Assembly: GCF_003052515.2 (NCBI RefSeq)
Contig: NZ_QARE02000005.1
Coordinates: forward strand, 248,001-312,000
From: Pseudomonas sp. RIT409
GTDB taxonomy: Bacteria; Pseudomonadota; Gammaproteobacteria; Pseudomonadales; Pseudomonadaceae
Direction of reading: 5' to 3'
Length of the DNA: 64,000 nucleotides
The notes below the pieces were generated by a model. That model saw only the letters and a list, made by a program, of their open reading frames with translations. It searched no databases and was not told the DNA's origin. The stretch's first letter is position 1. Every line of letters begins with the position of its first letter. Below, one piece after another: positions 5,923 to 51,866 of this stretch. Both the position numbers and the translations under genes were made by a program.

Positions 5923-7413
5923 ATGGCGGATTCACAACAGATGCTGATAGGTGCCGGACCGGATGGCCAGCCGGTCGGCCAGACGCTCAGGCTGGGCAAC
6001 CGCCACGGCCTGGTCGCAGGCGCAACGGGCACAGGTAAGACAGTCACCCTGCAACGCTTGGCCGAGTTATTCAGTGATGCCGGGGTAGCCGTGTTCGCCG
6101 CCGACATCAAAGGCGATCTGTGCGGGCTCGGGGCTGCGGGCAATCCCCAGGGCAAGGTCGCTGAACGCATTGCCGGGATGCCTTGGTTGCACTACACCCC
6201 CCAAGCCTATCCTGTGACGCTTTGGGATGTTTATGGCCAGTCCGGCCATCCCTTGCGGACAACGTTGTCGGAAATGGGGCCCTTGCTCCTCGGAAGTCTG
6301 CTCGAGCTCACCGACAGTCAACAATCGGCGCTGTACGCCGCCTTCAAGGTGGCCGATCGCGAGGGTTTGCTGCTACTCGACATCAAGGACCTGAAGGCGC
6401 TGCTCAATTATCTGCGCGACCATCCCCAGGCGTTGGGCGAAGACAGTGCCCTGATGACCACTGGCTCCAGCCAAGCGCTATTGCGACGTCTGGCCGTTCT
6501 GGAGCAGCAGGGCGCGGAGGCTTTGTTCGGTGAACCAGCCCTGCAATTGGAGGACATCCTGCAACCGGCGAGCGATGGGCGGGGGCGGATTCATCTGCTC
6601 GATGCCAGCCGGCTGGTGCATGAGGCGCCGAAGGTCTATGCGACCTTTCTGCTCTGGTTGCTGGCGGAACTCTTCGAGCAATTGCCCGAGCGTGGCGACG
6701 CGGACAAACCGTTGCTGGCGCTGTTCTTCGATGAGGCCCATCTGTTGTTCGCGGATACTCCCAAAGCGTTACAGGATCGCCTCGAGCAGGTGGTCCGCCT
6801 GGTGCGTTCCAAAGGCGTTGGCGTGTATTTCGTCACCCAGTCGCCTAGCGATCTACCCGATAACGTGTTGGCGCAGCTTGGCTTGCGCATTCAGCATGGC
6901 CTGCGGGCGTTTACCAGCAAAGAGCAGAAGTCACTCAAAGCGGTGGCGGACGGTTTTCGGCCCAATCCAGCCTTTGATGCGCTGACCGTGTTGACCGAAC
7001 TGGGCATCGGTGAGGCGCTGGTGGGCACGCTCCAGGACAAGGGCACGCCCGAAATGGTCAGGCGTGTGCTGGTGGCACCGCCGCAATCCCGAATCGGACC
7101 GCTGACGGTCAATGAGCGGTCGGCACTGCTCGCTCAGTCTCCGCTGGCGGGGCGTTATGACAAGGCGGTTGACCGTGAGTCTGCCTATGAGATGCTTCTC
7201 GCCCGTAAAGGCGCAGCACCCGAGGGCGCTGAAGAATCTGCCGCTGCAGAAAAAAACGAAGGCGGTCTTGCGGACCTCGCGGGCGGCTTTCTCGGCAGCC
7301 TGGCGGGGCAGGCAGTCAAAAGTGCGGTGCGCCAGGCGGCCAACCAGATCGGCCGGGAGTTGGTGCGTGGCTTGATGGGGTCACTGCTGGGCAACGGCAA
7401 AAAGCGACGTTGA
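5923..7413 (+). CDS. HerA-like helicase/ATPase, DUF853 (YjgR) family
   Basis: 496 residues. Walker A is GATGTGKT (residues 33-40) and Walker B is LLALFFDEAHLLF (about 265-277). A sensor-like YFVTQSPSDLPDNVLAQLGLRIQHGLRAF block follows, typical of the HerA/FtsK-like clade called DUF853. The C-terminus is a small Gly/Ala-rich amphipathic tail (GGLADLAGGFLGSLAGQAVKSAVRQ) and a basic end (GNGKKRR). E. coli YjgR is the obvious relative; its physiological role is not established. It stands alone and ends in a bidirectional terminator. Confidence 0.9.
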   Translation: MADSQQMLIGAGPDGQPVGQTLRLGNRHGLVAGATGTGKTVTLQRLAELFSDAGVAVFAADIKGDLCGLGAAGNPQGKVAERIAGMPWLHYTPQAYPVTLWDVYGQSGHPLRTTLSEMGPLLLGSLLELTDSQQSALYAAFKVADREGLLLLDIKDLKALLNYLRDHPQALGEDSALMTTGSSQALLRRLAVLEQQGAEALFGEPALQLEDILQPASDGRGRIHLLDASRLVHEAPKVYATFLLWLLAELFEQLPERGDADKPLLALFFDEAHLLFADTPKALQDRLEQVVRLVRSKGVGVYFVTQSPSDLPDNVLAQLGLRIQHGLRAFTSKEQKSLKAVADGFRPNPAFDALTVLTELGIGEALVGTLQDKGTPEMVRRVLVAPPQSRIGPLTVNERSALLAQSPLAGRYDKAVDRESAYEMLLARKGAAPEGAEESAAAEKNEGGLADLAGGFLGSLAGQAVKSAVRQAANQIGRELVRGLMGSLLGNGKKRR

Positions 7414-7433
7414 GCGCTGGAGCCTCCAAAACG

Positions 7434-7462
7434 AAAATGCCCACGGGTCAGGTGGGCATTTT
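7434..7462. terminator. Bidirectional terminator between the DUF853 gene and pit
   Basis: An 11-bp perfect inverted repeat (AAAATGCCCAC/GTGGGCATTTT) with a 7-base loop, between two convergent genes; A- and T-tracts flank it symmetrically. Confidence 0.88.
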
Positions 7463-7483
7463 CATTTCAATCGAATTGCCGAG

Positions 7484-8956
7484 TCACACAAGCGCCTTGG
7501 ACGCCAGCCAGAACAGGGCGGCGGAGAGGGCGACCGTGGCCGGCAGCGTCAGCACCCAGGCCAGCAGGATGTTGCGAACGGTGCCGCCTTGCAAGCCGCT
7601 CTTGTTGGCAACCATCGTGCCTGCTACACCCGAGGACAGGATGTGGGTGGTGGAGACCGGCAGACTGAACACGTTGGCCAGTGCGATGGCGCTGGCAGTA
7701 GTGATCTGCGCCGACATACCTTGTGCGTAGGTCATCCCCTGCTTGCCGATTTTTTCGCCGATGGTCAGGACCACGCGCTTCCAGCCGACCATGGTGCCGA
7801 TACCCAACGCCAGTGCCACGGCCAGAATCACCCAGAACGGGGCGTATTCGGTGGTAGCGGTCAGGTCTTTGCGCAGTTTTTCCAGGTCGGATTTTTCACG
7901 GGCGTCCAGCGCCGGCAGTTTCCCGACCTTGCGTGCCGTGTCGTCCAGGCACAGCAGGTAGCGGCGAACTTCGATCCGGTGTTCGGCAGACAGGCTGTGA
8001 TAGTCGGTGACGCCTTTCAGGTTGTTCAGCAGCGCGTCGATGGTAGGTTCGGTCTGCTCTGGATTGCAGCTGAAGTGCTCTGGCAGATCGCCGGTTGTCG
8101 ATTTACCCAACGCCAGATACTCGCCCAGCGTCGCATTGTTGCGCTGATAGAACTGGCTCAGGTGCAGCGTGGCATCACGGGTGCGCTCGATCTGGTAGGT
8201 GGTCGAACTCAGGTCCAGCACGAATTGCGCCGGCACGATACCGATCAATACCAGCATGATCAGACCAATGCCTTTCTGACCATCATTGGAACCATGAACA
8301 AAGCTGACGGCCATTGCCGAAATCACCAGCACCAGGCGATTCCAGAACGGAGGATGCTTCTTGTCTTTGGTATTGCGGCGCTGTTCCGGCGTGTTGTGCA
8401 TCTTGGACAGCGGGCGCCACGTCTTCAACGCAATCAACGCGAGTGCCGCGACAATGAAGCCCATCAGCGGGGAAAAGACCAGCGAGGCGCCGATGTCGAT
8501 TGCCTTCTGCCAGTTAACGCCTTCGCCCAGCGGGATGTGGTTGATCAGCGCGTTGGCCAGACCTACCCCCAAAATCGAACCGATCAGCGTATGAGAGCTG
8601 GAGGCGGGTATGCCGAAGTACCAGGTGCCCAGGTTCCAGGTGATTGCCGCGGCCAGCAGCGAAAACACCATGGCCAGCCCATGACCGGTATTGACGTTGA
8701 TCAGCAGTTCGACCGGTAGCAAATGGACGATGGCGTACGCAACGCCGACACCGCCGAGCAGTACCCCGAGAAAATTGAAGACACCCGAAAAGAATACGGC
8801 CAGGTGAGGGGGCATCGCCTTGGTGTAAATGACTGTCGCCACCGCGTTGGCGGTGTCATGAAAGCCGTTGATGAACTCGAAAGTGAGGACAAACGCCAGG
8901 GCGAGCAGCAAGCTCACAATCACCCAAGCATCCAGTCCGCTGAATAAATCGATCAT
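7484..8956 (-). CDS. pit: Low-affinity inorganic phosphate transporter, PiT family
   Basis: 490 residues, near the 499 of E. coli PitA. The PHO4/PiT signature appears twice in inverted topology: GFHDTANAVATVIYTKAMPP near residue 31 and FVHGSNDGQKGIGLIM near residue 220. There are about ten membrane segments, and a long polar loop (about residues 255-370) interrupts the C-terminal half, as in proteobacterial PitA. It imports metal-phosphate with protons at the inner membrane. It appears monocistronic, with no pho box that I could identify. Confidence 0.94.
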   Translation of the reverse strand: MIDLFSGLDAWVIVSLLLALAFVLTFEFINGFHDTANAVATVIYTKAMPPHLAVFFSGVFNFLGVLLGGVGVAYAIVHLLPVELLINVNTGHGLAMVFSLLAAAITWNLGTWYFGIPASSSHTLIGSILGVGLANALINHIPLGEGVNWQKAIDIGASLVFSPLMGFIVAALALIALKTWRPLSKMHNTPEQRRNTKDKKHPPFWNRLVLVISAMAVSFVHGSNDGQKGIGLIMLVLIGIVPAQFVLDLSSTTYQIERTRDATLHLSQFYQRNNATLGEYLALGKSTTGDLPEHFSCNPEQTEPTIDALLNNLKGVTDYHSLSAEHRIEVRRYLLCLDDTARKVGKLPALDAREKSDLEKLRKDLTATTEYAPFWVILAVALALGIGTMVGWKRVVLTIGEKIGKQGMTYAQGMSAQITTASAIALANVFSLPVSTTHILSSGVAGTMVANKSGLQGGTVRNILLAWVLTLPATVALSAALFWLASKALV

Positions 8957-35784: not shown

Positions 35785-37194
35785 ATGCGTTATATCAGTA
35801 CCCGCGGCCGCGCACCGGCCCTGAATTTCGAAGACGTCCTGCTCGCTGGGCTGGCCAGCGATGGCGGTCTGTACGTCCCTGAAAATCTCCCACGATTCAC
35901 CCAGGAAGAGATCGCGTCCTGGGCGGGCCTGCCTTACCACGAGCTGGCGTTCCGCGTCATGCGTCCGTTCGTGGCGGGCAGCATCCCGGATGCCGATTTC
36001 AAGAAAATCCTGGAAGAAACCTATGGCGTGTTCGCACACGCTGCCGTGGCGCCGCTGCGCCAGCTCAACGGCAACGAATGGGTACTGGAGCTGTTCCACG
36101 GCCCGACCTTGGCGTTCAAGGACTTTGCCCTGCAATTGCTGGGACGGTTGCTGGATTACGTGCTGGAAAAACGCGGCGAGCGCGTGGTGATCATCGGCGC
36201 GACGTCCGGCGACACCGGTTCTGCTGCCATCGAAGGCTGCCGCCGTTGTGACAACGTCGACATTTTCATCCTGCACCCGAACAACCGGGTTTCCGACGTT
36301 CAGCGTCGTCAAATGACGACGATCTTCGGTGACAACATTCACAACATCGCCATCGAAGGCAACTTCGACGATTGCCAGGAAATGGTGAAGAACAGTTTCG
36401 CCGACCAGAGCTTCCTCAAAGGCACGCGTCTGGTTGCCGTGAACTCGATCAACTGGGCGCGGATCATGGCCCAGATCGTTTACTACTTCCACGCCGCGCT
36501 GCAATTGGGCGGCCCGGCGCGTTCAGTGGCTTTCTCGGTACCGACCGGCAACTTCGGCGATATTTTTGCCGGTTATCTGGCGCGCAACATGGGGCTGCCG
36601 ATCAGCCAACTGATCGTCGCCACCAACCGCAATGACATCCTGCACCGCTTCATGAGCGGCAACCAGTACGTCAAGGAAACCCTTCATGCCACGTTGTCGC
36701 CGTCCATGGACATCATGGTGTCATCGAATTTCGAGCGTTTGTTGTTCGACATGCACGGTCGCAACGGCGCAGCGCTCGCCGAGTTGATGGACAGCTTCAA
36801 ACAGGGCGGCGGCTTCAGTGTCGCTGAAGATCGTTGGACCGAAGCCCGTAAACTGTTCGACTCGCTGGCGGTGAGCGACGAGCAGACCTGTGAAACCATC
36901 GCTGAAGTCTTTGCCAGCACCGGTGAGGTGCTCGACCCGCATACGGCGATCGGCGTCAAGGCGGCGCGCGACTGCCGTCGCAGCCTCGACACCCCGATGG
37001 TGATTCTGGGCACGGCGCACCCGGTCAAGTTCCCGGAAGCGGTGCAGAAAGCAGGCGTGGGAAAAGCACTGGCACTGCCTGCACATTTGTCTGATTTGTT
37101 TGAGCGCAATGAGCGCTGCACGGTGCTCCCGAATGATCTGAAAGCCATGCAGGCCTTCGTCAGTCAGCACGGTAATCGTGGCAAGCCGCTCTAG
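35785..37194 (+). CDS. thrC: Threonine synthase
   Basis: 469 residues from ATG 35785 (MRYISTRGRAPALNFEDVLLAGLASDGGLYVP). The PLP lysine is Lys112 in FHGPTLAFKDFALQLLG; the phosphate-binding loop is GATSGDTGSAAIEG. The length matches the long, E. coli-like class. It converts O-phosphohomoserine to threonine. The start is set by homology; the open frame upstream comes from the repeat element. Confidence 0.97.
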   Translation: MRYISTRGRAPALNFEDVLLAGLASDGGLYVPENLPRFTQEEIASWAGLPYHELAFRVMRPFVAGSIPDADFKKILEETYGVFAHAAVAPLRQLNGNEWVLELFHGPTLAFKDFALQLLGRLLDYVLEKRGERVVIIGATSGDTGSAAIEGCRRCDNVDIFILHPNNRVSDVQRRQMTTIFGDNIHNIAIEGNFDDCQEMVKNSFADQSFLKGTRLVAVNSINWARIMAQIVYYFHAALQLGGPARSVAFSVPTGNFGDIFAGYLARNMGLPISQLIVATNRNDILHRFMSGNQYVKETLHATLSPSMDIMVSSNFERLLFDMHGRNGAALAELMDSFKQGGGFSVAEDRWTEARKLFDSLAVSDEQTCETIAEVFASTGEVLDPHTAIGVKAARDCRRSLDTPMVILGTAHPVKFPEAVQKAGVGKALALPAHLSDLFERNERCTVLPNDLKAMQAFVSQHGNRGKPL

Positions 37195-37308: not shown

Positions 37309-39462
37309 ATGAACATGGACACGCAAGGAATGCCCGTCCAGCCCCGAATCACTCTGTTTATCCTATTGACGCTGCTCCTGATCGGCAGTTGGAGTCCACC
37401 GGGCCAGAGCGCGGAGACATTGCCCTTTGTCCTCGGGGCGCCTTTCAAAGTCGAGGAAAGACTTCACCTCAACGCCGAGGAACGTCGTTGGCTGGATGAT
37501 CGCGCCGTGCTCAACGTCGGCATCCCCATCGCCGATTACGAACCGATCAACATCACCACGGACCAGAATCGCTATCAGGGCATCAGCGCAGATTACCTGA
37601 GCCTGATCAGCGCCAAGCTTTCCATCCCCATAAAGATCACGGGGTTTTCCCGCCGTGAAGAAGAGCTTGCCGCGTTGATGGCGGGCAAGGTCGATCTGCT
37701 CGCAAGAGCCAGCGGTTCCGAGGGCGGGAAATCCGATTTGATCTTTTCACAGGTTTACATGCCTGATCGCTCGGTGGTGGTCGGTCGCTCCGCTGATTCG
37801 CCCCTGGAGACGCCGCTCAAGAGCAAACGCATCGCGGTGCTGAACGGCTATGTGGATGAGGCCGCCTTGAACAGGGCTTATCCGGACAGCCTCATCGTGC
37901 TGGCACCGACACTGCACAGCGGTATGGAAGCCCTCGCTCAAGGTGACGTGGACGCCTTTGTCGGCAATGAGGTGATTGTCCGGGCGTACCTCGCGCTGCG
38001 CCCGTACCTGAAGCTGAGTGTTCAATTTGAGAGCGCACTGGCCCCTTCTGGTTTGTCCTTCGCTTTGCGAGGCGACGACATCCGGCTCAAATCGTTGGTC
38101 GATCGCGCGCTCGACGATCTCGACGAATCGGTCGGCCGGGAGATCCAGCGACGCTGGACAGCCGGGCTGGGCGATGATGTCGTGAATCAGCGCATCCGCT
38201 TGAGCCCTCAGGAGCAGCGATGGGTGCGCAGGCATCCCCAAGTCACCGTGGCGTCCACTCAGCTCCCGCCGTATATCTATCAGGATGAGAAGGGACGCTG
38301 GGTGGGCCTGAACATCGATCTGCTCGAGCGGATTTCCCGCATGACCGGCCTCATATTTCGGCATGACGTCATGCCGTCCACCCAGGCCGCACTCGAGGCG
38401 CTGAGCGCTGGCAAGGCCGATATGAACACCACCCTCGCTGAGACGGCCGAGCGCCGGATGCAACTGAATTTCAGCTATGCCTATGGGGGCAACAACTGGG
38501 TCTACGTCGTGCGGGCGAATCGGCAGTCGCCCACGACCCTAGGCGACCTCTCGGGAAAAGTGCTGGCTATGCCGAGGCGTCATGCCCTGGTGGACTTTCT
38601 GCAACGCGATCATCCGGATATCCGGTTGAAGCTTGTCGCGACCTATGCGGATGCGCAGCGGCTCGTCGAAACCGGAGACGCTCAAGCGACCATTCAGAAC
38701 GAGGCGGGTGCCTGGGCCTCTGTGACCAGGCCGCTCAAGGTCGGCCGAAGCGTCGAAGGATTGTGGTCGCCGGATCGCTTCGTCGTGAGCAAGACACAGC
38801 CGGAACTGCTAAGCATCCTGAACAAAGCGCTCGATGAGTTTCCGGTCGCAGAAATGCGAGCGATACGAATGAAATGGCTGGGAAGCCTTCATCCCCCTCC
38901 ACCCATCTGGTCACGCCCCCCCGTTTGGCTCTACGGCGTGTTAGCCCTTGTAGGGGTGTCGTGGCTGGTGTCGTTGTTCTGGCGTGCGCGTATCAGGGTG
39001 CTTGAAGCTCAATGCAGGCGGGCAGAAGAGCAGCTCAATGATCATCATCTGTTTCTCTGCACGTTGCTCGACGCTTTGCCCGATGCAGTCTACGTCCGCG
39101 ATTTGCAGGGGCGATTGGTGACCTGCAATCGGGGCTACGAAGAGTGGCTCGGCATCAGCTTCGAGCAGTTGCATGGCCGGCGTTTGACGGATATCGACTT
39201 GCTGCCTCGCAAAACTGCGGAGGCGGTGCATGCCACTTACATGGATATTCTGAGCACCGGGGAGCCGGTCCGAGGGCGGGCGCCTCTGACGCTCGTAGAG
39301 CCTGAAGTGGACGTCTTTCAGTGGGTCGCTCCGTTTTATCGTGCCAACGGTGAGCTGCAGGGGGTAGTGGGCGGCTGGGCCGAGCTACCACCCCATGGCC
39401 ATGTTGAGCGGGAGCGGGCCGGCATCCCACGGACAGCGGTATCCGTGGGGCCATCAGGATGA
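37309..39462 (+). pseudogene. BvgS/EvgS-like sensor lacking its kinase (two VFT domains, TM, PAS)
   Basis: 717 residues from ATG 37309 (a Met at 37315 is equally possible). A signal/membrane segment (ITLFILLTLLLIGSW) is followed by two periplasmic solute-binding-like (Venus flytrap) domains, about 55-280 and 290-530, the second starting RLSPQEQRWVRRHPQVTV, a pattern typical of BvgS family sensors. Then a membrane helix (WLYGVLALVGVSWLVSLFW, about 545-565) and a PAS domain (about 590-690: LLDALPDAVYVRDLQGRLVTCN). After VVGGWAEL, where family members run into the HisKA domain, the frame goes on for about 25 unrelated residues and stops. No kinase, receiver or HPt sequence follows in any frame I checked. 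BvgS-type proteins are about 1,100-1,250 residues. Best read as a 3'-truncated remnant; a signalling role without a kinase cannot be excluded. Confidence 0.8.
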
Positions 39463-39603
39463 ATTCCATCTGTCACATTCGACGGGCATGCTCCCAGGGA
39501 GGCAGACCTACAGATCGATGCAGCTCTGGAAAGAAACTTTCCACTTCCGACCGTGGTCACTGATGAGCACCTTTTGCATTCAAATGATTGAGTGGTGAAT
39601 CCA

Positions 39604-39900
39604 ATGGAAAATATCAGCTTGTTGCTCAGCGAAGCCTTGGCGCCTTATCAGGCGATTCTGGGGGCTGTCGGGGTCAAGGGCGAGCGTCTGGTGACGTTGA
39701 AAGATGCAACCGGTGCAACCGTCATCGAGCGGATCTATTCCGCTGCGCAGTTGTGTGACAAACGCCAGTTGACCGATGTGGTCGATGGGCTGCGTCGGGA
39801 CTTGATGGTGGCCGAAGGGCGTATCGAGCCTTGCGTCATCGCGGCCATGCGTAATGCGACACAGGTCACTCATTTCACCGCCGGTCAGACTTTCATCTAA
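39604..39900 (+). CDS. Small DUF3509-like hypothetical protein (98 aa)
   Basis: 98 residues, MENISLLLSEALAPYQAILG... with a pattern (RLVTLKDATGATVIERIYSAAQLCDKRQLTDVVDGLRRDLMVAEG) that I associate with the Pseudomonas-specific DUF3509 family; function unknown. No signal peptide. Upstream in-frame MVNP at 39592 is a weaker start. A terminator follows at 40013-40050. It begins 141 bp after the truncated sensor, so it lies right at the likely deletion junction. Confidence 0.75.
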   Translation: MENISLLLSEALAPYQAILGAVGVKGERLVTLKDATGATVIERIYSAAQLCDKRQLTDVVDGLRRDLMVAEGRIEPCVIAAMRNATQVTHFTAGQTFI

Positions 39901-40062: not shown

Positions 40063-40956
40063 TCAGTTTTGCGCTTCGTCGAAAAACGTCTGGGCATCGC
40101 GCAGGTATTCCTCCTTCTTGACCATCCACTCGGCGTAAAACCCGATGAGTCGGGTGGTCCGCAGAACGCGCATTTCACGGTTGATCACCTCCATGGCCGC
40201 ACGGCCCCTATCGGTCTTCGAGCAGCCGATGTGCGCAAACTGATATTTGGGCGCGTTCTTGATCGGAAAAAACTCCAGATCTTCGAGCGGGATGCCTTGT
40301 TGTTGAGCGTGATAGCGCACCTCTGGCCAGTAGCTGATGATGGCCTGAAAACGATCCATGCGTTCCATTTGCAGCATGCTGCCTACTGCCGCATTGCCAT
40401 AGTGCAGGATCAGGCTGTCCGTTGCCGGCGTGGCGCGCAAGATCTTGTCGATGGTCGGGCCATAGCTGCGCTCGGCCACTATCCCGACTTTGACGGTTTT
40501 GCTTGCCAGCAGGGTGGCGAGGTCCAGATGGCCGTCCTCGGTCAGGAAGGGGGCGAATCGGGCGTGATTGCTCTTTTCGATGGTCACGCCGTTGCCGGGG
40601 GTGGCATAAGTCGGGATCGAAAACAGAATGGTTTTTTCGCGTTCTGCAGTCCATAGCAAGGTGGGATCACAGGCGAACACGTCCGGGTCCTGAAGCATTT
40701 GCGTACCCCGTGCGCGATTCACATGCATGATCTGGTGGTTGTACTCAGGCATGCGGGCGATCAACTCAGGCATCAACCTGTCAATTGCACCCTGGCCGGT
40801 CTGAGGGCCGGCGAAAATGGTCAGGGGCGGAAAGTCGCGCAACAGCCAGATAAGCGTCTCTTTGGCGTGTGCGGTGCCGGGCATCATGCTCAGCGATAAG
40901 CTCACGAACAGGGCCAATGGCCCGCTGATGTGAAGGCGCAGGGTGCGAGTGAGCAT
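40063..40956 (-). CDS. Periplasmic solute-binding-like protein (TIGR02285-like)
   Basis: 297 residues from ATG 40956, chosen because a clean signal peptide follows directly (MLTRTLRLHISGPLALFVSLSLSMMPGTAHA, cleavage after AHA). The frame extends to 41055, which would place 33 extra residues before the signal. The mature part resembles the bacterial family-3 binding-protein fold: ETLIWLLRDFPPLTIFAGPQTGQGAIDRLMPELI, HVNRARGTQMLQDPDVFACDPTLLWTAEREKTILFSIP, FQAIISYWPEV. This pattern fits the uncharacterised TIGR02285 group of stand-alone periplasmic proteins often annotated as amino-acid ABC substrate-binding. No permease or ATPase genes are nearby. Confidence 0.8.
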   Translation of the reverse strand: MLTRTLRLHISGPLALFVSLSLSMMPGTAHAKETLIWLLRDFPPLTIFAGPQTGQGAIDRLMPELIARMPEYNHQIMHVNRARGTQMLQDPDVFACDPTLLWTAEREKTILFSIPTYATPGNGVTIEKSNHARFAPFLTEDGHLDLATLLASKTVKVGIVAERSYGPTIDKILRATPATDSLILHYGNAAVGSMLQMERMDRFQAIISYWPEVRYHAQQQGIPLEDLEFFPIKNAPKYQFAHIGCSKTDRGRAAMEVINREMRVLRTTRLIGFYAEWMVKKEEYLRDAQTFFDEAQN

Positions 40957-41252
40957 CCGTCGATGTAAATCCCGAAAAAGCTGGTTGGCGCTCAGACGTG
41001 CGCTGCCGCACCCGGTAGGGTCTGAGAGTGAAACGGCCCGCTGTGAAAACTTCATCCTGAAGGGTCTCGTACCAAGGTATCGGCGTGGTCGTCCATTTAT
41101 TTAACACTCGCCACCTCGGATTGATTAAAGCACCGCGTTGCCGGTTCGGCACAGTGGAAGGGTCCTTCAACCGATCGGTCATCGCCTCGGGTCGTTGAAT
41201 GCCCCTGCATCGGGTAGACTTGGCGCCTTCCCCTGTCTCTAGAAGCCCTTTC

Positions 41253-50409: not shown

Positions 50410-51866
50410 ATGAAGCCGCAGATAGGCATCCGGTTTTGCAGGGGCTCTACCTCAACGGTCAATGGCGGGAGGGTAAAGAACGTCTGGCGGTCATTAACCC
50501 GTCGACGGAAGCGCCTTTGGCAATCGTCACCGGGGGAGATGCGCAGTCAGTGGACGATGCCGTGCAGGCCGCCCGTTCGGCGTTCGACGCCTGGTCGAGG
50601 ACGACGGGCGCCTTCAGGGCGGTGATTTTGCGTCGGATCGCCGCCGGTGTCGCTGAGCGGCGCGGGCGCTTGATGAGCCTTCAGTCCACCAATAATGGTA
50701 AGCCCGGTTTCGAGGCCGCCATGGACGTGGATGACGTCATTGCGACGTTCAACTATTACGCGGACCTGGCCGAGGCGGCAGACGTGCAGCAAAACCGCGA
50801 GGTGGCGCTGCCGACCGAGGCGTTTGCAGCCCGTCTGCGCCGGGAGCCGTGCGGCGTGGTGGGGCTGATCGTGCCGTGGAACTTCCCCATGGTGACCACC
50901 GCCTGGAAGCTCGCGCCTGCCTTGGCCGCCGGTTGCTGCGTGGTGCTCAAACCCTCGGAAATCACCCCGCTGGCGGAGCTTGAGCTCGCCCGGATCATTG
51001 CTGCGAGCGGCCTGCCGGACGGCGTGTTCAACCTCGTCTGCGGTACGGGGCTGGCCGTCGGCGCACCGATGGCAGGACACCCGGGCATTGCCAAGGTGTC
51101 GTTCACGGGCAGCAATGCGGTTGGCGTGCAAGTCATGCAGCGCGCGGCGGAAACGGTGAAGGGCGTGAGCCTCGAACTGGGCGGCAAATCGTCGCTGCTG
51201 GTGATGGCAGATGCTGATCTGGATCTGGCGGTTGAGCTGGCCAGTGGCGGCGGGTACTTCAACGCCGGGCAGATGTGCTCGGCGACCAGCCGTGTGTTGG
51301 TGGCTGAAGAACGCCTAGAGCCGTTTCTCCAACGCCTCGTCGCCAAAGCGCAGTCGATCAGGGTGGGCAGCCCCGAAGAGGACGGTGTCGAGATGGGGCC
51401 GCTGGTCAATCAAGCGCAGTATCGCCGCGTTGTCGATCACATTGAGACCGCAAAGGCCGACGGCGCGCGGTTGTTGTGTGGCGGACAGCGTCCGGCCAGC
51501 CAGCCTCGGGGGTACTTCCTGGAGCCGGCAGTGTTCACGCAAGTGCCGCTGAACTGTGCCCTGTGGCGCGAAGAAATCTTCGGCCCTGTGCTGTGCGTGC
51601 GCGGGTTCAGCTCCGAGGCCGAAGCCATCGCACTGGCCAATGACAGCCCGTTTGGCCTGGTTGCCAGCGTGGTCAGCAGCGACAGTAGGACGGCGGACCG
51701 GGTTGCCGACGCCTTGCAGGCGGGCACGGTATGGATCAATTCACCCCAGGTGATCTTCCCCCAGACGTCTTGGGGCGGTTTCAAGCAGAGCAGCCTGGGT
51801 CGTGAGTTGGGCCCTTGGGGCATGCAAGCGTTCCAGGAAATCAAGCACGTGGTACGAGCGACTTGA
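50406..51866 (+). CDS. NAD-dependent aldehyde dehydrogenase, likely 4-guanidinobutyraldehyde dehydrogenase
   Basis: 486 residues. ALDH superfamily with PWNFPMVTTAWKLAPALAAGCCVVLKPSEITPL (Asn and cofactor lysine), FTGSNAVG, the general base Glu in VSLELGGKSS and the nucleophile Cys in FNAGQMCSATSR. Close to betaine-aldehyde dehydrogenase-type enzymes. Its ATG overlaps the aruI stop, so the two proteins are made together; oxidation of the decarboxylase product to 4-guanidinobutyrate is the natural inference. In P. aeruginosa this job is done by KauB encoded elsewhere, so the fused layout is a variation. Confidence 0.88.
   Translation: MNEAADRHPVLQGLYLNGQWREGKERLAVINPSTEAPLAIVTGGDAQSVDDAVQAARSAFDAWSRTTGAFRAVILRRIAAGVAERRGRLMSLQSTNNGKPGFEAAMDVDDVIATFNYYADLAEAADVQQNREVALPTEAFAARLRREPCGVVGLIVPWNFPMVTTAWKLAPALAAGCCVVLKPSEITPLAELELARIIAASGLPDGVFNLVCGTGLAVGAPMAGHPGIAKVSFTGSNAVGVQVMQRAAETVKGVSLELGGKSSLLVMADADLDLAVELASGGGYFNAGQMCSATSRVLVAEERLEPFLQRLVAKAQSIRVGSPEEDGVEMGPLVNQAQYRRVVDHIETAKADGARLLCGGQRPASQPRGYFLEPAVFTQVPLNCALWREEIFGPVLCVRGFSSEAEAIALANDSPFGLVASVVSSDSRTADRVADALQAGTVWINSPQVIFPQTSWGGFKQSSLGRELGPWGMQAFQEIKHVVRAT

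Follow-up and report, generated by a model that had tools for sequence, protein, structure and literature searches.

Two-component sensors are commonly thought to exist for the sake of their histidine kinase core, and BvgS-type sensors are in general modelled as dimers. Because three of four periplasmic changes present in one protomer only abolished the activity of B. pertussis BvgS heterodimers, one deviant protomer can dominate a BvgS pair; the fourth change kept activity and partly restored the response (PMC4352136, in part). In the RetS-GacS pair, a sensor protein modulates a second kinase; phosphate uptake by RetS and the phosphatase activity of its transmitter account for part of this effect (PMC5992135, in part). 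For roc3 of P. aeruginosa, the kinase gene (rocS3) is thought to have been lost, and scars of it remain (PMC12051241, in part). What switches bacterial pseudo-receivers on or off was called a mystery in a 2025 perspective (PMC12632262, in part). Here we describe a locus beside thrC at which a BvgS-type sensor stands without its kinase.

The sensor gene and its deletion junction

The window, as we call the whole analysed stretch of 64,000 nt from Pseudomonas sp. RIT409 (contig NZ_QARE02000005.1, positions 248,001 to 312,000), encodes on its forward strand a kinase-less BvgS-type sensor of 717 amino acids at 37309–39462, as seen from the open reading frame, from Pfam and PDB matches and, for the start, from alignment with the P. 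bohemica locus L035. The reading frame ends with a TGA at 39460–39462 and has two possible ATG starts, of which 37309 is likelier than 37252 because the residues MNMDTQGMPVQ are common to P. bohemica there. The initial annotation had placed the end at 39603, which is 141 bases beyond the stop, at the base before the DUF3509 gene.

Pfam recognized SBP_bac_3 in two stretches of the 717 residues and PAS_4 at residues 587–687, and it found no kinase domain in this protein. The first Venus flytrap domain (VFT1) comprises residues ~46–290 (37444–38178; Pfam and PDB) and the second (VFT2), the sole flytrap remaining in the one-flytrap relatives, residues ~300–540 (38206–38928; Pfam, alignment and PDB), with boundaries set by eye in both cases. 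A putative membrane helix, read from the sequence as a hydrophobic stretch, and a helical linker follow at residues ~539–585 (38923–39063; alignment), and the PAS domain covers residues ~586–692 (39064–39384; Pfam PAS_4 and BvgS PAS 6zj8). The periplasmic part of BvgS (4q0c) matched residues 38–531 in the PDB sequence search with an E value of 1.2e-57; EvgS (9ilw) and, over residues 572–701, the PAS domain of BvgS (6zj8) were further matches. Two periplasmic SBP_bac_3 domains and a membrane helix followed by a cytoplasmic PAS domain, as expected of the BvgS/EvgS type, are therefore present (PAS_4, 6zj8; helix read from the alignment), and the histidine kinase core, receiver and Hpt domains of that type are missing.

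Two flytraps, a membrane helix and a PAS domain with no internal stop, followed by about 25 unrelated residues, had been proposed from the sequence beforehand. This description held: all 717 codons are open, clear homology to relatives ends at ...GGW (residue 690), and the last ~25 residues before the stop (39385–39462) have no clear counterpart in the aligned relatives. No closer relative of the gene was found in 398 genomes of the genus, a scan of genome contigs, 115 relatives and 398 genomes of the family; the nearest relatives among the matches listed share 61% identity at the protein level and ~66%–67% at the DNA level (long matches).

The order of genes in the loci examined is dsbC-hom-thrC-sensor-(DUF3509)-SBP-yaeQ-recJ. 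We take the names dsbC, hom, thrC, yaeQ, recJ and dgt to be correct, a Pfam match supporting that of yaeQ only. The left landmark is thrC (35911–37194, forward strand; 427 residues used as probe; named from context), and the right landmark is the DUF3509 gene (39604–39900, forward strand; Pfam and locus comparison). In the spacer between sensor and DUF3509 (39463–39603), positions 39470–39498 and 39530–39603 match the DNA directly upstream of DUF3509 in P. bohemica (L066), and because of these matches we place the junction of the deletion between about 39385 and 39470. These ~85 bases stand where P. bohemica has ~3.8 kb of DNA; the histidine kinase, receiver and Hpt domains of the intact relatives are absent from this place, as are their two regulator genes.

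When the P. bohemica sequences of these three domains were used as tblastn queries (E 1e-3), no match was obtained in 13 kb around the window gene. A frameshift that conceals a kinase was rejected on the same grounds, as the gap between the stop and DUF3509 is only 141 bases. A dedicated separate kinase, by which the initial annotation would have been refuted, was not seen in the stretches examined for the window and the kinase-less loci. An assembly or sequencing error is scarcely credible: the source assembly consists of 57 contigs, but both flanks of the junction are collinear with relatives, and the kinase-less state recurs in dozens of genomes, including G020 and G197, which consist of a single contig.

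Some further features of the locus were noted. An inverted repeat resembling TGCCTGTCACATTCGGCAGGCA lies upstream of DUF3509 in six of eight relatives inspected and is degenerate in the window (~39465–39495; by eye). A secreted binding-protein-like gene of the TIGR02285 family is located on the reverse strand at 40063–41055. A gene of this family stays in most of the compared loci, with the kinase present or absent, and gave no match in L046, L048, L049 and L057. The only tRNA gene found in the window is that for tRNA-Sec (50584–50658).

Kinase loss beside thrC across Pseudomonas

In P. bohemica (L035, apparently the same contig as L066), a frame of 1239 residues with histidine kinase, receiver and Hpt domains lies between thrC and DUF3509. 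It is followed by the gene for a 417-residue REC-EAL regulator, whose best PDB match over residues 1–399 is RocR (3sy8, E 1e-68), and then, on the opposite strand, by the gene for a 219-residue LuxR-type regulator. By NCBIfam, the kinase is nearest to EvgS and the REC-EAL protein nearest to PvrR, both far below the curated cut-offs. The domain order of the intact kinases is two flytraps, membrane helix, PAS, histidine kinase, receiver and Hpt, and the intact locus beside thrC has the appearance of a BvgS-type, Roc-like phosphorelay. In one such locus (L067 of G234, 7565–8893), the REC-EAL regulator is broken between its receiver and EAL parts, and the locus is otherwise intact.

We compared 81 loci including the window, chosen by their similarity to the window protein and not as a random sample. 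L108 (G702) was dropped because its contig stops 81 bases after an interrupted PAS domain; an apparent mobile-element border lies at this contig end (~5966–6066), inside the PAS or where it ends. Among the 80 evaluable loci, 21 were intact, one was split by a transposase-like ORF, 28 were kinase-less with two flytraps and 30 kinase-less with one flytrap, so that the kinase was absent in 58 of 80. The initial annotation had suggested comparing relatives for a full kinase and response regulator, and the 21 intact loci provide both: matches to the REC-EAL regulator and to an adjoining LuxR-type regulator were found in 21/21, and neither a RocR-like REC-EAL regulator with a kinase nor a cognate LuxR-type regulator is present in the window. 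No whole histidine kinase match, as expected for a separate kinase gene, was found in the stretches examined near the kinase-less loci, the window included. L049 (G353) was rejected as such a case: a transposase-like ORF of 561 residues is inserted within the PAS or at its end (~6030–8700) and the kinase part lies beyond it, and this locus was counted as kinase-bearing.

Sampling of genomes gave a similar division. Orthologues with at least 342 bits were found in 41 of 71 genomes of the same genus and were, by frame length, intact in 17 and kinase-less in 24; the other 30 of the 71 showed no match at this threshold. When 398 genomes were scanned, the 150 with an orthologue listed comprised 71 frames of at least 1100 residues, one split frame and 78 kinase-less frames, 22 with two flytraps and 56 with one. 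If a kinase was never regained, it was lost six times on the hom+thrC tree and seven times on the sensor tree. The two trees come from quick searches, and 18 of 78 inner branches are weak in that of hom+thrC, so the number of losses could shift. Trees alone cannot separate loss from gain, and the direction was argued from domain remnants. A single ancestral loss, or the spread of one kinase-less gene, is unsupported by these six and seven losses. VFT2 is present in every form seen, and the one-flytrap forms consist of a hydrophobic N-terminus, VFT2, helix and PAS and lack VFT1. The latter may have been lost twice, because L118 stands apart from the other 29 one-flytrap loci on the hom+thrC tree. 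L050–L055, L141 and L142 showed no DUF3509 match; the helix and linker of their sensors share 37% identity, compared to 63%–72% for the flytraps.

The kinase-less proteins end near domain borders (all by eye). The window protein, the one-flytrap forms, L044, L048 and L050–L055 end right after the PAS; L038–L042, L109 and L112, as well as L043 and L046, L047 and L116, end within the coil that leads toward the kinase. The third group ends after the DHp hairpin and comprises L036 and L037 and the related 791-residue frames L045, L117, L120 and L124, which lack the ATPase domain. The phosphoacceptor His of the H-box is kept in all four of the latter and replaced by another residue in L036 and L037; phosphorylation of these four proteins in trans, by some other kinase, is conceivable. 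The regulators were mostly trimmed or lost: 31 of 59 kinase-less loci (L108 included) gave no regulator match, 24 a solitary receiver, three a LuxR-type regulator and one a whole REC-EAL protein.

Selection on the sensor and on the solitary receiver

Codon substitutions were analysed in four kinase-less sets. Each set was drawn from a single loss on the trees, so that all of its branches are younger than this loss; none of the sets includes the window. The set of seven termed 791/752 does not contain L048, which shares the loss of this set on both trees. In the control alignments, 0–3 in-frame stops were replaced by NNN. Omega was 0.11–0.16 for VFT1, 0.11–0.14 for VFT2-TM and 0.05–0.15 for PAS in the kinase-less sets and 0.12–0.13, 0.11–0.12 and 0.08–0.11, respectively, in the intact kinases, compared to 0.01–0.04 for hom; in the deeper sets synonymous sites approach saturation, which makes these values rough and leaves the contrast with 1 standing. 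With a purpose-written codon model, omega = 1 was rejected in 11/11 tests on the four kinase-less sets (LRT 134 to 1029), nine of nine on the three two-flytrap sets and two of two on the 12-locus one-flytrap set (PAS omega 0.107, VFT2 omega 0.128). We concluded that kinase-less sensors, as a class, have very probably been retained.

These values also bear on whether only ligand binding matters, so that the protein would be a membrane-tethered periplasmic binding protein for the uptake, buffering or concealment of a ligand, with a PAS domain that serves dimerisation only. The presence of VFT2 in all forms and the reduced architecture of the one-flytrap forms fit this idea. The PAS domain is, however, constrained much as in the intact kinases, which a mere tether would not need, and we consider this explanation improbable.

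For the branch leading to the window gene, which also spans time before the kinase loss, omega was 0.157 versus 0.111 elsewhere (LRT 2.8, not significant), and neutrality was rejected (LRT 117.6). The flytraps showed no significant relaxation (VFT1 0.115, VFT2-TM 0.144; neutrality rejected with LRT 54 and 62). The PAS had an omega of 0.293 versus 0.068 elsewhere (LRT 4.9; LRT 8.1 against neutrality), and in the alignment the linker between membrane and PAS deviates from residues that most relatives keep. Judged from these patterns, the sensor part of the window protein is constrained and its cytoplasmic part may be loosening.

The window copy could be suspected of being a relic, either recent or in decay, in which the kinase was lost lately or to no use, irrespective of the events in other clades. 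The fast PAS and the diverged linker speak for this, as do the failure to find a close relative with the same short protein and a tail without clear counterpart. The 717 codons have no stop or frameshift, however, the flytraps are not significantly relaxed, even if their branch covers time before the loss, and the PAS itself departs from neutrality; we regard a relic as unlikely. The initial annotation had left open whether the deletion is recent or the short protein kept. For the class, the second option is borne out by 58 of 80 loci without kinase, by omega values of 0.05–0.16 and by the rejection of neutrality in four sets. For the window copy alone either option may hold: the substitution pattern, which was to be checked in the sensor part, revealed constrained flytraps and a PAS that looks partly relaxed and is faster than in relatives.

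In addition to the sensor, we inspected the neighbouring receiver genes in 66 one-flytrap loci (30 from the locus set and 36 more). No kinase match was found in the stretches examined around them. A solitary receiver is encoded in 31 of the 66, 111–128 bases downstream on the same strand and with a length of 135 residues in 29/31; the other 35 loci, and also the window, gave no receiver match. From this absence in 35/66 loci it follows that the sensor does not need the receiver. The active site of a receiver relies on a metal-binding Asp, a Thr/Ser and a Lys in addition to the phosphorylated Asp. In the 31 one-flytrap receivers, P (21) or H (10) replaces the metal-binding Asp, Gly occupies the Thr/Ser position (31/31) and Thr or Ser the Lys position (30/31); Asp56 is kept in 27/31 and is Asn in four. 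The loss of the acidic residue, of Thr/Ser and of Lys that characterizes pseudo-receivers thus applies to 31/31, 31/31 and 30/31 of these neighbour genes, and the window has no such gene. Examples beside kinase-less sensors are found in L133, L065 and L138. Canonical residues are present in all 23 REC-EAL loci and in 8/8 receivers of the two-flytrap clade. The omega of the receiver was 0.151 in the 12-locus set versus 0.12–0.13 for the receiver of intact REC-EAL proteins, and conservation of the alpha5 stretch was 0.89 in the one-flytrap receivers versus 0.60 in REC-EAL proteins and 0.72 in the two-flytrap clade. In the one-flytrap group with receiver, we infer that neither protein is fit for normal phosphotransfer, yet both genes are kept.

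The main rival to a role in steering another kinase is signalling without any histidine kinase: the PAS would contact a non-phosphorylated partner, which would be the pseudo-receiver in one group and another protein elsewhere. It fits the pseudo-receiver group, where almost half of the loci (31/66) keep a receiver with altered phosphorylation pocket (omega 0.151 in 12 loci) and with a more conserved alpha5. The pseudo-receiver is, however, not a general partner, as it is absent from 35 of 66 one-flytrap loci and from the window; Asp56 is mostly kept, the receivers of the two-flytrap clade are canonical, and the alpha5 contrast may partly reflect a younger group. On balance, signalling of this kind is possible, if rather doubtful.

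A possible contact mechanism and its relation to known systems

The reading that we prefer builds on the comparison of loci, most of which lack the kinase half of the phosphorelay beside thrC, with regulators shortened or gone and with sensor and PAS maintained by purifying selection. The remaining protein would be a receptor without catalysis that still binds a periplasmic ligand and still dimerises via flytrap, membrane helix and PAS. Its action would depend on contact between proteins, and its most likely target would be another BvgS-type kinase, with which it would pair or which it would modulate. The window copy would be one such receptor, its loss being independent or common only to the sister G068. 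We assign a probability of about 0.42 to this whole mechanism for the window copy, in which we infer each of the contact steps.

The genome of the window contains a candidate partner. The search for other BvgS paralogues suggested by the initial annotation yielded one full-length protein, an intact BvgS-type kinase of 1214 residues, whose gene lies next to dgt and is accompanied by those for a LuxR-type regulator and a solitary receiver. By analogy with BvgS dimers, it is a possibility that the kinase-less receptor sets the state of such a kinase through pairing. The paralogue and the window sensor share 28% identity over the sensor, which makes heterodimers doubtful. A dgt-type kinase (E below 1e-200, a threshold fixed after inspection of the table; the position beside dgt was observed in the genome of the window and in G026 only) occurs, among the matches listed, in 77/78 kinase-less genomes, the lone exception G222 being 73% complete, and in 71/71 intact genomes. 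Since it is equally present in the intact genomes, we rejected this co-occurrence as a sign of partnership. The fast PAS and diverged linker of the window copy fit decay as well as a change of role, and in the two-flytrap-plus-receiver clade identity over the membrane helix and linker is only 37%; both points count against the contact mechanism. A separate truncation was seen in G026 (L147, reverse strand), where the ORF of the dgt-locus paralogue has 736 amino acids and ends right after the H-box (...MSHEIRTPMNAQ).

Whatever the partner, the headless sensors seen in dozens of Pseudomonas species probably serve some function in their own right. In six or seven natural deletions, the sensing half of a BvgS-type protein was preserved without its kinase about as strictly as with it. 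This provides a natural set for asking which roles flytraps and PAS have beyond kinase control, how they might steer other kinases and how pseudo-receivers work. That Pseudomonas repeatedly made a phosphate-free contact module, consisting of a kinase-less receptor and, in one group, a receiver with destroyed pocket, both under selection, is a conceivable but rather unlikely generalization.

Among the literature matches listed, with subscription papers mostly outside the scope, there was no description of kinase-less BvgS-type sensors that are kept at a locus. In the order of its tandem flytraps, membrane helix and PAS, the window protein agrees with BvgS and EvgS (4q0c, 9ilw, 6zj8); unlike these, it has no DHp, ATPase, receiver or Hpt domain, and the window holds no cognate regulator gene. 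Unlike RetS, the kinase-less sensors have no transmitter and at most a DHp hairpin. The receivers of the one-flytrap group have lost key active-site residues, by which bacterial pseudo-receivers are defined in the parts of PMC12632262 used here; unlike the known pseudo-receivers, their gene adjoins a sensor that is itself without kinase. The intact relatives resemble the Roc system of P. aeruginosa (RocS1-RocR-RocA1) in having a REC-EAL regulator that matches RocR and a LuxR-type regulator, and differ from it in gene order. The main text of PMC12051241 mentions neither thrC nor homoserine, and the eroded rocS3 that this source describes in part is the closest case in the literature. At roc3 the regulators were kept along with kinase fragments (H1 or Hpt), whereas at the thrC locus it is the sensor half that persists and the kinase that is lost.
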